64,000 nucleotides of DNA. Origin: an uncultured Dehalococcoidia bacterium. GTDB lineage: Bacteria > Chloroflexota > Dehalococcoidia > Lucifugimonadales > UBA3495. The translations under genes and the position numbers were made by a program. The stretch's first letter is position 1. Each line of letters begins with the position of its first letter. Of this stretch, positions 50,955 through 58,585 are shown one piece after another. The DNA lies in NCBI GenBank assembly GCA_951813535.1, contig OX638345.1, positions 75,029-139,028 on the forward strand, written 5' to 3'. Below the pieces are notes generated by a model. It was not told the origin of the DNA, did not search any database, and worked only from the letters and a program-made list of their open reading frames with translations.

Positions 50955-52271
50955 TCACGAAGGGTGCTTGCCCAGCATCAGCCAGCCGCCGCTGCTGGGG
51001 GTGGTGAACGCGCACAGGGCGGTCTCGGCCCGCACGTTGACCTGACGGTCGCCCGCAGTGCCCCGCAGTTGCTCGATGCTGTCGGTGTACATGGCGGTGC
51101 GGGTGCGCCCGTTGCCCAGGTTGCCGCCGCTGGAACTGAAGGGGTGGGGGCCCTTGACGCTGATGTCGCCGGCGTAGAAGGAAAGGGCTTCGCCCCGCTT
51201 GACCCCGTGCCACTGGAAGCCCTCCAGGAAGAACTGGGTCATTATGGAATAGCCGTCGTAGGGGTTGAAGATGTCCACGTCGGCGGGGCCAAGGCCGGCG
51301 CCTTCGTACATGCGGGCGGCCTGCCGGTCGGTCCACATCTCCACTTCGTCCAGGTCCGGCTGGGTGGTACGGAACCGGAAGTTGTGCTGGGAATGGTTGA
51401 GCACGTACACGGGCTGGGATTTCATGTCCTGGGCCCGCTCAGCGGTGGTGAACAGGTAGGCCGCCGAGGCGTTGACGGGACGGTCGCAGTCCCAGATGCG
51501 CAGGGGATTCAGGATTGGGCGGGAGCCGATGTAGTCTTCCACCGATATGGGCTGGACGTTGTGGGTTGCGTTGTACCCCCAGGGGGTGAGCATCCCGTTC
51601 TTGTGCTGGTTGCGGACAAAGTGGACAAGGTCCTCATGTTCGCCGCCGTACTTCGTCAGGTACTGGCGATGGGGGAAGATGTTGATGAAGTCGTTGCCAC
51701 CGTGATTGCCCCACGGCACGGTCCACTGGCGTGCGCCCCGAGCGTAGTCGTCGGCATTCTCGCCGCCCCGCCGGTACCGGCCTTCCATGTTGCCGGTGGG
51801 ATAGATGACCAGGCAGGTGGAGCAGACGCCGTCGCCCACCGCCTGCGAGGCCATGCCCACCATCTCGCCGATGGTCGGCACCCCGGTGGGGGCGAATTTG
51901 ACGTTCTTGAAGCCCATGGTGTCGATGAGCCACTGGGCGTTGATCAAGGTCAGGCCGTACTCCGAGTCGTAGGGCGGGTCGAAGTAGGGCCGGGGCGCCC
52001 ACTGGGAGGCGGTCCCGCCGCTGGCGCCGGCGATGTGGCTGTCACAGCAGACGATGCCGTCCACCTGGTCAATGGTGACGCCGGCCTGCTCCATGGCCTT
52101 CTCGCAGGCCATGATGGTGTAGGCGCCCAGGGAGGTATCCAGGTTCTTCTCATCCCACCGCCGGTCCACCGGCGAATGGCCGTAGCCAGCGACGGCCACC
52201 TTGCCCCGGTGTTCCCACACGCCCAGGCCGTCCCGGTCCCTGCGCCATTGGAAGTCATTGCTGCTGGTCAT
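50955..52271 (-). CDS. SCP2-type thiolase-like protein
   Basis: 438 residues, a thiolase-fold protein paralogous in type to 1074-2264: KVAVAGYGHSPVDRRWDEKN, MEQAGVTIDQVDGIVCCDSH, VPTIGEMVGMASQAVGDGVC, a VDIFNPYDGYSIMTQFFLEG segment and PHPFSSSGGNLGNGRTRTAM in the C-terminal half. The classical Cys-His pair is not evident. It is downstream of a DUF35 gene (49 bp apart) and lies between two IS3 relics. Function as in the first pair: retro-aldol or thiolytic step on an acyl-CoA, substrate unknown. Confidence 0.85.
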   Translation of the reverse strand: MTSSNDFQWRRDRDGLGVWEHRGKVAVAGYGHSPVDRRWDEKNLDTSLGAYTIMACEKAMEQAGVTIDQVDGIVCCDSHIAGASGGTASQWAPRPYFDPPYDSEYGLTLINAQWLIDTMGFKNVKFAPTGVPTIGEMVGMASQAVGDGVCSTCLVIYPTGNMEGRYRRGGENADDYARGARQWTVPWGNHGGNDFINIFPHRQYLTKYGGEHEDLVHFVRNQHKNGMLTPWGYNATHNVQPISVEDYIGSRPILNPLRIWDCDRPVNASAAYLFTTAERAQDMKSQPVYVLNHSQHNFRFRTTQPDLDEVEMWTDRQAARMYEGAGLGPADVDIFNPYDGYSIMTQFFLEGFQWHGVKRGEALSFYAGDISVKGPHPFSSSGGNLGNGRTRTAMYTDSIEQLRGTAGDRQVNVRAETALCAFTTPSSGGWLMLGKHPS

Positions 52272-52320
52272 AGTCCGTCCTTTTGTCGCTTGTCAACGAA
52301 CAGGGAAATTTCGACGGTGG

Positions 52321-52731
52321 TTATTCCACCACCCGCCACTCGTGGATCAACTGGCCGGGGGCCACTTCCTCAAAGGTAACCTCCACCGCCGCACCCACCG
52401 GCACCTCGTAGGCCGGGACGCCCGGCAGGTTGGAATAGAAGTTCACCGTGGGATCCTGGTCCAGCGTCACCAGGGCCAGATTGTAGGGTTGGTCGAGCAT
52501 CCGGCGGTTGAGGCGGCCGTCCTCGATGACGATGTAGGCGGCGATGTGGCCATTGCCTTCCACGTCTGTCCATTCTAGCCCGTCGGCGGACCCGCACGCC
52601 TGGCAGGACGCCTGGGGCGGATACTGGAGCTTGTCGCAGGCGGTGCAATTCTGGAGGATCAGACGCTGTTCGTTCACCGCGTCCCAGAAGGGCTGGCTGA
52701 GTTCATCGGGTACCGGGATTATCTTGGGCAT
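52321..52731 (-). CDS. DUF35 Zn-ribbon/OB-fold protein, thiolase partner
   Basis: 136 residues. Zinc ribbon LQNCTACDKLQYPPQASCQA (CxxC...CxxC with the second pair ASCQACGS), then the OB-fold VEGNGHIAAYIVIEDGRLNR and YNLALVTLDQDPTVNFYSNL. GGAGA is just upstream of the ATG. It precedes the thiolase gene in the same transcript; in the first operon the order is reversed (thiolase then DUF35). Confidence 0.88.
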   Translation of the reverse strand: MPKIIPVPDELSQPFWDAVNEQRLILQNCTACDKLQYPPQASCQACGSADGLEWTDVEGNGHIAAYIVIEDGRLNRRMLDQPYNLALVTLDQDPTVNFYSNLPGVPAYEVPVGAAVEVTFEEVAPGQLIHEWRVVE

Positions 52732-53245: not shown

Positions 53246-54403
53246 CTACGGCTCTCCGAAACACGCCACCGCATTGTCCCACATGATTCGCTGCAAGAGA
53301 TCCTGGTCCAACGCTTCCCAGCCCATCACCAGATCCACCGAGCCGGGGAACCGGGTCTCCGGGTGGGGATAATCGGAGCTGTACATGAGAAGTTGTTTGC
53401 CCATCAGGTCGGACACCATCTTCACCATCTCCGGCCCCTCGTGGAGCACGATGGAGGCGAAAAATCGGCCGCTGGACATATACTCGGCCATGGTGTGTTT
53501 CAACTCCGCCACGTAGCCCATGTATTCCACCTGATCCTGCATCCGGGCGGCCCAGAAAGGCAACCAGCCGAAGCCCGACTCCAGGATGGAGAAGCGTATG
53601 CTGGGATATTGGTCCATCAGGCCCGCTCCCAGGAACGACGCCACCGCGCGCATTGCCCCCCAGGGATGGGATGCCGTGCGGCCCATGAATGGGTTTTGCC
53701 ACAGGTCGCGGTAGCCAGGGTAGCCTCCGGAGAAGGAATGGTGCACGACGCACAGACCTTCGTCTTCCACCGCGCGCCAGACGGGATGCAGCGAAGGGTG
53801 GTCCAGGGGAAAGTCCAAGGGAAGGTTGAGCCAGATGCCCGCCGTCCAGGCGCTTTCGCCCCAGGTCCTGATCTCCTGCGCGGATTCTTCGATGAAACGG
53901 GCATCCAGGGTCAGCAGGGCCTTGAGGCGGTGGGGAGCCGTGCCGCAGAAGTCGTTAAGGAACCGGTGGTTGGCCCGGATAAACTCCAGGTCCACAGATG
54001 GGTCCTGATGCCCCCGGGGCACGCCCGGAACCATGAGCTGCACATCCACTCCCTCTTCGTCCATATCCCGCAGGCGGCTTTCGGCAACCCATTCGCCGTC
54101 GGCGGCGGGCAGTTTGGCGCCCATAAACTTCTGGGGACGCCGTTCCGCGTCGCGGTCCGGCTCCGCCTGTCCCAGAGTCCGCGGCGCGTCCGAACCCCAG
54201 CCGCCGCCCGAGCTGCCCAGGCTGAACCGGTGGGCATAGGGAGATTCCAGGGTGGCGCCCGCAGAGGTCCGGCGGATGGGCGTCTTGTACTGATCCAGGT
54301 CGGGAAGCTTTTCCCTGACCGATGCAGCCAGGTAGAGGTCCAGTCCCTCCGCCGTGGCAGTCACGTGAGTATCGGAATCGTAAACTTTGATGCCGTTTCT
54401 CAT
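53246..54403 (-). CDS. Amidohydrolase_2 (ACMSD-like) family protein
   Basis: 385 residues. KVYDSDTHVTATAEGLDLYL near the N-terminus (D-x-D-x-H variant of the HxH metal motif), VDVQLMVPGVPRGHQDPSVD, LCVVHHSFSGG (His), FSILESGFGWLPFWAARMQD and LLMYSSDYPHPETRFPGS with the catalytic Asp. Such enzymes decarboxylate or hydrolyse carboxylic acids of cyclic compounds. GGAGGAAG precedes the ATG. It is 96 bp downstream of the linalool-dehydratase-like gene on the same strand and probably in its operon; the IS3 relic lies right after its stop. Confidence 0.85.
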   Translation of the reverse strand: MRNGIKVYDSDTHVTATAEGLDLYLAASVREKLPDLDQYKTPIRRTSAGATLESPYAHRFSLGSSGGGWGSDAPRTLGQAEPDRDAERRPQKFMGAKLPAADGEWVAESRLRDMDEEGVDVQLMVPGVPRGHQDPSVDLEFIRANHRFLNDFCGTAPHRLKALLTLDARFIEESAQEIRTWGESAWTAGIWLNLPLDFPLDHPSLHPVWRAVEDEGLCVVHHSFSGGYPGYRDLWQNPFMGRTASHPWGAMRAVASFLGAGLMDQYPSIRFSILESGFGWLPFWAARMQDQVEYMGYVAELKHTMAEYMSSGRFFASIVLHEGPEMVKMVSDLMGKQLLMYSSDYPHPETRFPGSVDLVMGWEALDQDLLQRIMWDNAVACFGEP

Positions 54404-54499: not shown

Positions 54500-56038
54500 T
54501 CACCACTGCTGGCTGATCACGAACGTGTGCTCACCGACGGTAGTTGTGATCTCCAGTTCATCGCCGACGATGCGCCAGTCCTGGGAGGGCTGGCCGTCCA
54601 TCACGACCCGGCATCTCTGGGCATCCACGTTGTTGACCCTGAACGAGGTCGGTTGTCCGACGGCGCCGGGCCGGCCGGCGTCCGTGGACACCAGCAGGGA
54701 GCGGCGGTCGACGTCGTAGTACGCCTGCGAGAGGCAGACGGTGGGGAAATCCACGGCGTACACCGTGGGCTCGATGAATTTGCGCAGGTTGGGCGCGTCG
54801 TAGATGCGCGCCATCGCACCCGGAGAGCAGGCTTCGGCGGTCGCAATGTGCCCGTTGTACTGGCCCCTGGGATGGGGCTCGTCCAGCCCGAATCCCCAGG
54901 TGAATTCACCAGAGGCGGCGTCCCAGGTCGGCTCATAGTTTTCTTCGGCGTGGGCCATCAGCTTGGCGTAGATGGCGTCCTCTCCAAACTCCTTCGCCAG
55001 CGCCAACCCACGCACCGTGGTCGTCGGTGTGGGCTCTCCAGTTGCATAGTCTATCGATCCCTCTCGGACCGGCTGCAGAGTTCTCCATCCCAGGGCGTCG
55101 GCAGCGCCGTTGAAAAGCATCCGGGACTCCTCGTTCTTCTGGCCAAGCAGTTCTCTGGCCAAGCCCAGATGCCCGGCGGCCCGCGTTGGAACATGGAGGT
55201 CAATCAGAGGGTCGTAGAATCGCGTGGACGTGTCCCGGGACGTGCCCGTGATGCGCCCCAGCCCGTAAAGTTCCTTGGCCGTCTCCCACCAGTTGTTGAA
55301 GACCCGATGGTGGTCGCTGCCGTAGAGGATGTCGTGTAGCCTCAGACCGAGGCCCGCTCCGGCCAATCAATTTGGCCAGACCTTGGTGTTCTCTCAATGG
55401 CACCCCTCAGCCCTGGCGGACCATTGTCTCGCCAGGTGTTCGGCGGTTTCGGAATGGGTCCAGGTGAAGGTGTTTTCGCCGTCGCGTACGATTTCGAAAG
55501 GTTGGTTCCACTTGTGGTCGCCGGTCACATACACGTAGTAACCGAGCAGTTGCAAGAACCATCCCTTGAAGAAGAGATTGCCGTCGGCGCCGATGGGGTC
55601 CATCTGCAGGCCCCAGGGTTCAACGCCGTTGGCCGTCCAGCCGATGACGTCGTAGCTGCCCCTGAGGTGCCTGGGGATCAGGTTCCGGTACCATCCCTCG
55701 GGGTAATTTTCCCGCCGGGGGTCGGGGCCAATCTGGTCAAGCCAGTCCTTGGCGGCCCAGTATCCGGTGTGCCTGAAGGCGAGTTCGTCCAGCACCCTGC
55801 CGTAGACCTCGCGCCAGGCGGGAGTGGTGTCTGCCATCAGCACCATGGCGTACATTGAGGCCCACAGGTCGAACCGGTGCCACGAAGCCGGGGGCTCGCC
55901 GGAAACATTATCCCAATGCGGATGGGGTTCGCCGTCCTTGTCCCAGTTGTCCTCGGTGGTGGCCTTGCGATACATGTACCTCAGCCAACCCCGGCTGCGG
56001 TCCGAGGTCGCCGGATACCCCAATACGGTTACAGCCAT
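54500..56038 (-). CDS. Linalool dehydratase/isomerase-like enzyme with two in-frame TGA codons (predicted di-selenoprotein)
   Basis: 513 codons from ATG 56038 (AAAGGAG upstream) with TGA at codons 215 (55394-55396) and 224 (55367-55369). Both halves read in one frame, before and after. Around them the protein reads EGCH-U-ENTKVWPN-U-LAGAGLGLRLHDILYG. The Ldi family carries a C-E-x5-(F/W)-x2-C pattern here, whose two Cys (C171 and C180 in Castellaniella Ldi, nine apart) are catalytic. The substitution of exactly both by TGA indicates selenocysteine. A GCCTC-GGTCT-GAGGC hairpin follows the second TGA (55339-55353). The N-terminal helices (WHRFDLWASMYAMVLMAD) and the downstream half fit the alpha/alpha barrel. 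Ldi hydrates or dehydrates allylic alcohols; the substrate here is unknown. The alternative is a pseudogene with two coincidental nonsense mutations. Confidence 0.78.
55339..55353 (-). promoter_or_regulatory. Candidate bacterial SECIS hairpin
   Basis: Read on the minus strand, 13 nt after the TGA at 55367-55369: GCCTC, loop GGTCT, GAGGC (5-bp stem). As I recall the E. coli fdhF SECIS, its apical loop is also GGUCU, at the same 18 nt from the UGA. A second GGTCT occurs 11 nt after the first TGA (55378-55382) with only a 3-bp CCA/TGG stem around it. Confidence 0.6.
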
Positions 56039-57400: not shown

Positions 57401-58585
57401 CTACAGGAGCCGGCCCTTCAGCGACTCAAACTCCTCGCGGGTGATGTAGCCCTGTTCCAGCAGGCGGGCCAGGCGCTCCAGCTCGCCCACCACGCCGCCG
57501 GCGCTGTGCGTACTCGGGTCCTGGGCAACGGAGCGATCCACCTGCTTCACGTCGGTCACGCCGCAGAGGCCCATGGTCACGCTGAGTTCGGCGCGCAGAA
57601 TCTCCAGGCAGTGGCGGACCCCCTCTTCGCCGTTGACCGACAGCCCCCAGAAGATGGGCCGGCCCACGAAGACCGCCCGGGCGCCGAGGGCCAGCGCCTT
57701 CAGCACGTCCGCGCCCTTGCGGACGCCGCCGTCGAAGTAGACCTCCAGCCGGTCGCCCACGGCGTCTGCGATCTTGGGCAGCATCTCGATGGTGCCCTCG
57801 GTGCCCTGCAAGGCGTGGCCGCCGTGGTTCGAGACCACCAGCGCCTCGCAGCCGTACTCGGCGCAAAGGCGGGCGTCCTCGGCAGTTTGCACTCCCTTGA
57901 TGACCAGCGGCATCGAGGTGATGGAGCGCAGCCACTCCAGGTCGGACCAGTTGAGGCCCGACTCGAAGCTCTCGGCGAAATTCTCCCGCGTGGGCAGGTT
58001 GGGCAGCTCGATTCCCTGGAAGTTCTTCAACGTGCGTTCCTGGTCCAGGATGTAGGCGTAGCGGTGCTCCCGCTCCCGGGAGTTGGCGCCCAGGTTGTCC
58101 ACCGTGAGCATCATGGCCTTGTAGCCCGCGTTTTCCGCCCGGCGCACCAGGATCTCGGTCAGCTCCCGGTTCTCGAAGAAGTAGAGCTGAAACCAGAGTG
58201 AATTGGTGGCAACCTCGGCCACTTCCTCAATGCTGTAGCTGGAGGCGGTGCTGAGTCCCAGGATGGTCCCCGCGCCGCCGGCGGCCCGGGTGGAAGCCAG
58301 CTCACCCATGGGGTGGGCGCGCTGGTGGGTGCCGGTGGGGGCCAGCATCACCGGCATGCTGATCTCTTCGCCCAGGACCGTGGTGGTCATGTCCCGCTCG
58401 GTGACGTCCACCAGGATCCGGGGACGCAGTTTGACTTCGCTCATGGCCTGGACGTTGCTGGTGTTGGTTATCCAGTCGGGCGCGCCCAGGTCGCCGAACA
58501 GCCGGTCGAACAGGGCCTGGGGCATGGTCTGCCTGGCCCGGGCTTCGTAGTCTCCAATGGTCAGCAGGGTCGGCTGGGTAGTCAT
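57401..58585 (-). CDS. FMN-dependent alpha-hydroxy-acid oxidase with SHOCT tail
   Basis: 394 residues of the lactate/glycolate oxidase (LldD-type) TIM barrel: RPRILVDVTERDMTTTVLGE, MPVMLAPTGTHQRAHPMGE, WFQLYFFENRELTEILVRRA, PLVIKGVQTAEDARLCAEYG, ALVVSNHGGHALQGTE and VYFDGGVRKGADVLKALALG. The catalytic His (SNHGG) is kept, but the substrate-carboxylate Arg of the usual SNHGGR is His here. The last ~32 residues (GELERLARLLEQGYITREEF) are a SHOCT-type module, unusual on this enzyme. GGAGGAAGC precedes the ATG. The substrate is therefore probably not simple lactate. Confidence 0.88.
   Translation of the reverse strand: MTTQPTLLTIGDYEARARQTMPQALFDRLFGDLGAPDWITNTSNVQAMSEVKLRPRILVDVTERDMTTTVLGEEISMPVMLAPTGTHQRAHPMGELASTRAAGGAGTILGLSTASSYSIEEVAEVATNSLWFQLYFFENRELTEILVRRAENAGYKAMMLTVDNLGANSREREHRYAYILDQERTLKNFQGIELPNLPTRENFAESFESGLNWSDLEWLRSITSMPLVIKGVQTAEDARLCAEYGCEALVVSNHGGHALQGTEGTIEMLPKIADAVGDRLEVYFDGGVRKGADVLKALALGARAVFVGRPIFWGLSVNGEEGVRHCLEILRAELSVTMGLCGVTDVKQVDRSVAQDPSTHSAGGVVGELERLARLLEQGYITREEFESLKGRLL

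Follow-up and report, generated by a model that had tools for sequence, protein, structure and literature searches.

What does a bacterial gene encode when its reading frame is open except for TGA at the two positions where its family carries a catalytic pair of cysteines? The question is raised by a 64,000-nucleotide stretch of DNA from an uncultured Dehalococcoidia bacterium (the window, here always meaning that whole stretch), in which a first-pass annotation picked out a gene resembling linalool dehydratase/isomerase (Ldi) and proposed it as a candidate di-selenocysteine enzyme. Judging from comparative sequence evidence, we hold with high confidence that the product of this gene is a selenoprotein with the Ldi fold (PF18566) that carries selenocysteine (Sec) in place of each cysteine of the catalytic pair, and we infer that Sec is inserted at both sites in vivo. 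Coordinates of the gene, its two in-frame TGA codons (U1 and U2), the associated RNA elements and the neighbouring genes are collected in Table 1.

Table 1. Position and strand of the features discussed, in window coordinates.
Feature	Position	Strand	Basis or remark
Predicted Ldi-like selenoprotein gene, 512 residues	54500..56038	minus	frame, PF18566 match, predicted fold
U1, first in-frame TGA, codon 215	55394..55396	minus	Ldi Cys171 column
U2, second in-frame TGA, codon 224	55367..55369	minus	Ldi Cys180 column
SECIS-like hairpin for U2: 6-bp stem, GGUCU apical loop (55348..55344)	55338..55354	minus	
Second hairpin: 8 bp, 7-nt loop holding the UGA of U2	55358..55380	minus	proposed part of U1 decoding
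Amidohydro_2-family protein (PF04909)	53246..54403	minus	about 97 nt downstream of the Ldi-like gene
ChsH2-like zinc ribbon/OB-fold protein (zf-ChsH2/OB_ChsH2_C)	52321-52731	minus	catabolic context
Thiolase-like protein	50955-52271	minus	catabolic context

Re-reading of the sequence bore out the single frame of the first-pass annotation, which lies on the minus strand and is broken just at codons 215 and 224, both of them TGA. It opens with ATG (56038) and closes with a TGA as codon 513 (54500), and no TAA or TAG occurs inside the 512-residue frame; the plus strand of 54500-56038, which was read too, gave nonsense and no gene. The residue context around both codons, EGCH-U-ENTKVWPN-U-LAGAGLGLRLHD, matches the one originally quoted. 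The argument that a random pair of nonsense mutations would be unlikely to fall on these codons also stands: the chance of two TGAs hitting two given codons out of 511 is 7.7e-6, and, decisively, 22 sequences, the window gene included, carry TGA at one or both of these exact columns. Standard gene calling delivers such genes as two fragments, as happened with the window gene.

Pfam returned a single match for the window protein, PF18566 (Ldi), which scores 51 bits where the cut-off is 26.1, and the same family matches all 13 members of our alignment A1. A profile built from these 13 members and compared with all PDB sequences finds Ldi (E 5e-9), aligning eGchCentkiwplClsaaGLGL with aGivCepdnyfvqCnsvaylsl. 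This alignment places U1 on Cys171 and U2 on Cys180 of 5G1U (Cys170 and Cys179 in other numbering), so that the TGA columns are the catalytic cysteine columns of Ldi, as had been claimed from the motif. The window protein consists of an (alpha,alpha)6-barrel (residues 1-421) followed by a C-terminal beta domain (about 425-512). Its AlphaFold model (mean pLDDT 79.6, pTM 0.85, with low confidence at residues 31-54) matches Ldi with a Z score of 30.5 over 327 residues; the next family after Ldi, other (alpha,alpha)6 barrels, reaches 19.2.

Besides the cysteine pair, the active site of Ldi includes His129, together with Asp39 and Tyr45. The His129 column holds Trp160 in the window protein and Phe or Asp in its relatives. 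Ldi also has a Cys48-Cys101 disulfide and a periplasmic signal (PMC6600392). The window protein has no Cys before residue 213 and therefore lacks that disulfide, and its N-terminus is not signal-like on inspection. Because His129 is replaced and the disulfide cysteines are absent, the Ldi reaction may not be conserved in this family: the window protein is a distant relative that shares the fold and the catalytic pair, not the Ldi enzyme itself.

The comparison set comprised 27 sequences spanning the motif, the window gene counted. A search for homologues with TGC/TGT or TGA at the same two columns, suggested in the first-pass annotation, was productive. TGA stands at both columns in eight sequences (the window gene, L028, L029, L066, L067 and the L035-L037 group, in which L036 nearly duplicates L037); in 14, from hosts among the Alphaproteobacteria, one gammaproteobacterium and Entotheonella, U1 is TGC or TGT and U2 alone is TGA; and five have Cys at both. 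Counted by column, U1 is TGA in 8/27 and TGC/TGT in 19/27, and U2 is TGA in 22/27 and TGC/TGT in 5/27; none of the 27 family sequences has an in-frame TGA at any further column. In the tree, the Cys/Cys rows are split from all Sec rows by a branch supported 99/99, and three state changes suffice overall. The family history was probably stepwise, from Cys/Cys to Sec at the second site and then to Sec at both. Between Sec/Sec genes with computable dS, dN/dS is 0.18-0.20 over the whole gene and 0.21-0.24 downstream of U2, with synonymous sites near saturation; the low ratio downstream of U2 indicates that the part behind the TGAs is translated.

Some of the relatives call for separate mention. 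An Entotheonella-related genome contains a Sec/Sec copy (L066, G789:C1:3254613-3256139) that groups with the Chloroflexota Sec/Sec clade (support 100/99), and also has its own Cys/Sec copy, L063; the placement of L066 inside the Chloroflexota clade suggests gene transfer between phyla. In Entotheonella, another Sec/Sec copy (L067-L069, G498:C1:1725377-1726837) is apparently split over two frames, with its middle part shifted, and may be decaying or misassembled. On JAGWAU010000029.1 / G495:C115, two Ldi-like Sec genes (L030, L047, L060, L061) adjoin in opposite orientation, the second of them spread across several frames. The alphaproteobacterial genomes G495-G497 yield three to five matches each, and every full-length one has one TGA. 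A distant Cys/Cys relative (L073, G1168:C277:15850-16872) has a single TGA at the Gln of the family motif PRGQ, probably through error or decay; this TGA sits at an unrelated column of a fragmented gene, and L073 was set aside. A search for relatives in viral contigs found none.

The window gene's genome (G000) is a single contig of 4.38 Mb, from the same order as genome G095 (L027/L029). The Sec machinery, named by the first-pass annotation as a check on its proposal, is present in this one genome: a tRNA-Sec with anticodon tca (66.4 bits against a gathering score of 47, the next-best seven matches to the model being Ser, Leu, Gly and Arg tRNAs), SelB with a match spanning the full model (355 bits), SelA (445 bits) and SelD (370 bits). 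The selD gene (L022, G000:C1:1105770-1106690, minus strand) itself has an in-frame TGA and reads HCAGUAAK; this position, the known Sec site of SelD, is an internal control for the decoding of UGA as Sec in the host. With tRNA-Sec, SelA and SelB present, and a selD that itself contains an in-frame TGA, the organism very probably decodes UGA as Sec, and it probably makes at least two selenoproteins, the Ldi-like protein and SelD. SelA was found in 11/11 TGA-bearing genome handles tested (one genome entered under two handles). It was also found in 63/67 of the relatives and Cys-form genomes tested (Chloroflexota), so that SelA co-occurrence is uninformative as evidence in Chloroflexota, where SelA is nearly universal, Cys/Cys genomes included.

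Just downstream of U2, all genes with a TGA at that site have a 6-bp stem closing a GGUCU loop (GGUUU in L035). Counting from the T of U2, the loop starts with its first G at base 22, which is also where GGUCU begins in E. coli fdhF. Published constraints on bacterial SECIS elements are a loop of 3-9 nt with a G within its first two bases, a spacing of 16-37 nt and an MFE of at most -7.5 (PMC13188914). The U2 hairpin conforms to them with its GGUCU loop and 18 nt spacing; its MFE in the window gene is -9.7 (computed on 24 nt that contain the hairpin), and the L035-L037 clade, at -7.3 kcal/mol on the short stretch folded, falls just short of the limit. The apex of the hairpin corresponds to codons +6 to +8 after U2, CTC/GGT/CTG (Leu-Gly-Leu), which are kept in 20/20, 20/20 and 19/20 members, respectively. 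Among 64 invariant four- or six-fold columns, only these three are near-invariant in codon, with no other within one sequence, and GGT accounts for 19% of the Gly codons in these genes. Cys/Cys genes encode the apex residues by different codons. Stem pair 45-57 occurs as C-G (13), G-C (6) and U-A (2), every cell being paired, and sliding the partner strand as a control abolishes the pairing. Under synonymous resampling, the hairpin is stronger than expected in genes with U2 (combined p 7e-12) and shows no excess strength in Cys/Cys genes (p 0.91), p-values that overstate the independence of related sequences. These observations support a model in which the second UGA would be recoded by an E. 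coli-type SECIS hairpin, with GGUCU placed as in fdhF.

U1 is a different matter: the two UGAs are 27 nt apart, which puts U1 at 45 nt from the GGUCU loop, beyond the 16-37 nt range. The first UGA would need a further hairpin between the two UGAs, specific to genes with UGA at U1. Measured against synonymous variants, the inter-UGA hairpin is stronger in 8/8 Sec/Sec genes (z -1.4 to -2.9), with z around zero or positive in the 14 Cys/Sec genes; both the contrast between the two groups (Mann-Whitney p 3e-6) and the Fisher combination over five separate Sec/Sec rows (p 3e-5) are inflated by relatedness and amount to moderate evidence. The Cys/Cys gene L042 is an exception, reaching z -2.3. The loops of the inter-UGA hairpin—CAAUGAC, CAUUGAC, CAGUGAC, AAUUGAU and CGUGAC—mostly have no G at either of their first two bases, where the standard bacterial SECIS model requires one. 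The data moderately support a putative U1-specific RNA element in Sec/Sec genes and, more weakly, a need for this hairpin in the decoding of U1. It may be U1’s own unusual SECIS or a collapsible spacer, neither of which we strongly prefer.

A tentative model, which we rate as possible rather than probable, is a telescoping SECIS, in which one SelB-binding GGUCU hairpin would serve both UGAs and a non-redox hydratase/isomerase fold would thereby acquire an active site with two selenocysteines. With the ribosome at U1, the inter-UGA hairpin would fold away 23 nt, so that U1 would be about 22 nt from the loop instead of 45 nt, or 29 nt in the case of the L035-L037 clade. As the ribosome advanced, the inter-UGA hairpin would melt, and the same SECIS would then stand 18 nt from U2.

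Three other readings of the TGAs have to be weighed against a Sec/Sec protein. An Ldi-like gene in decay that had picked up two nonsense mutations, or a sequencing error, would show a frame interrupted by two stop codons, but the identical two TGAs recur in independent assemblies at 55-69% identity, which also disposes of the read error that the first-pass annotation had allowed for. Moreover, dN/dS is low, the frame has no further stop, the Cys/Sec genes keep the second TGA and the RNA elements are conserved; conservation of the TGAs across clades refutes this reading, and we give it a negligible chance. Decoding of TGA as Trp or another standard residue, through a code change or readthrough, would explain the open frame and nothing beyond. 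The window gene and several relatives terminate in TGA, sequences without the TGA have Cys in its place (19 at U1, five at U2) and never Trp, an RNA element resembling a SECIS sits exactly downstream, and the genome has a tRNA-Sec. An alternative genetic code is rejected on the normal use of TGA as terminator and on the Cys counterparts, and other recoding in general is very improbable. It is also possible to suppose that U2 alone is read as Sec, with the UGA of U1 serving mainly for selenium-dependent termination or regulation, or being inefficiently read, so that the double-Sec enzyme would be a minor product. Only U2 has a SECIS that conforms to the standard model, the linear distance from U1 to the GGUCU loop exceeds the usual range, and the Cys/Sec relatives manage on one Sec. 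Against this, the TGA at U1 is kept in eight sequences from two divergent clades, along with a hairpin peculiar to these genes, and purifying selection extends over the 298 codons that follow U1; we consider such a reading improbable, though less so than the other two.

If Sec does occupy both sites, the pair would, by analogy with the Cys pair of Ldi, carry out acid/base or covalent (selenoether) chemistry of the hydratase/isomerase type on an alkenol or alkene-like substrate, and the enzyme would be a cytoplasmic catabolic hydratase, dehydratase or isomerase. As the first-pass annotation proposed, Sec may there serve as a more nucleophilic and more acidic catalyst for putting water onto an alkene or taking it off. 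An alternative that bears on function alone, and leaves the Sec claim intact, is a redox Sec pair (diselenide/dithiol-like) in place of a hydratase/isomerase. Most known selenoproteins are thiol oxidoreductases or have redox motifs (PMC13188914), and the loss of Ldi His129 also fits this alternative; the fold and the positions of the pair, however, match Ldi, the window protein has no redox domain and no U-x-x-C motif, and both Ldi cysteines are essential for activity and must stay reduced (PMC6600392). On balance we think a redox role rather unlikely and keep to the hydratase/isomerase-type reading.

The Ldi-like gene lies upstream of, and on the same strand as, the amidohydrolase, ChsH2-like and thiolase-like genes. 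These downstream genes suggest catabolism of a lipid or isoprenoid, and the amidohydrolase is a possible operon partner. Pairs of ChsH2-like and thiolase-like genes occur in steroid side-chain aldolase complexes, and the two genes adjoin in the same manner here (50955-52731), near the Ldi-like gene. Across the neighbourhoods of relatives no conserved partner gene was found; the neighbours include cyclase-like proteins, alpha/beta hydrolases, LamB/YcsF and gamma-glutamyltranspeptidase, and in the window the amidohydrolase. Elsewhere in the window, 57401-58585 encodes a protein of the FMN-dependent alpha-hydroxyacid dehydrogenase family, the best NCBIfam match of which, below cut-off, is MftD (pre-mycofactocin synthase).

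The predicted Cys/Cys, Cys/Sec and Sec/Sec forms together make up a new selenoprotein family. Neither Ldi nor any other PF18566 protein is listed among the 119 prokaryotic selenoprotein families and subfamilies catalogued in 2026 (PMC13188914), NCBIfam offers no model for the window protein, and we found no open-access paper joining linalool dehydratase with selenocysteine or selenoprotein with SAR202. Most known selenoproteins are redox proteins; here, predicted Sec replaces the catalytic pair in a family that adds water to alkenes or removes it. Selenium in acid/base or covalent non-redox catalysis thus becomes directly testable, with natural Cys/Cys, Cys/Sec and Sec/Sec forms available for comparison, and the gene offers a clear case for asking how bacterial ribosomes deal with two UGAs so close together. 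Ldi enzymes are also of interest in biocatalysis, for the hydration of alkenes.

Among known systems, Ldi of Castellaniella defragrans (PDB 5G1U, 5HLR, 5I3T; PF18566) has the same (alpha,alpha)6-barrel as that predicted for the window protein and the same two catalytic columns nine residues apart, with Glu after the first (C-E in Ldi). It differs in having Cys where the window protein has predicted Sec, in having His129 where the family of the window protein has Trp, Phe or Asp, and in its Cys48/Cys101 disulfide, which the window protein lacks along with any apparent signal peptide; the window protein has the extra C-terminal beta domain, and identity in structural alignments is 15-18%. The linalool isomerase (Lis) of Thauera linaloolentis is Ldi-like, with a cytoplasmic catalytic domain (PMC4791888). 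It has an N-terminal membrane domain and no reported Sec, and is likened here by description. The SECIS of E. coli fdhF has the same apical loop at the same distance from its UGA, but fdhF has one UGA, whereas the window gene has two ahead of its single GGUCU hairpin and a further hairpin in the interval between them. More than one Sec per bacterial protein is also known from a putative mercuric reductase (UxxU), an FmdB-like protein (UxxU) and the rhodanese/DsbD protein TsoB (UxxxxU) (PMC13188914). These belong to other families and have their Sec residues 3-5 positions apart, whereas those predicted for the window protein are nine apart, in the (alpha,alpha)6-barrel of a hydro-lyase/isomerase family.
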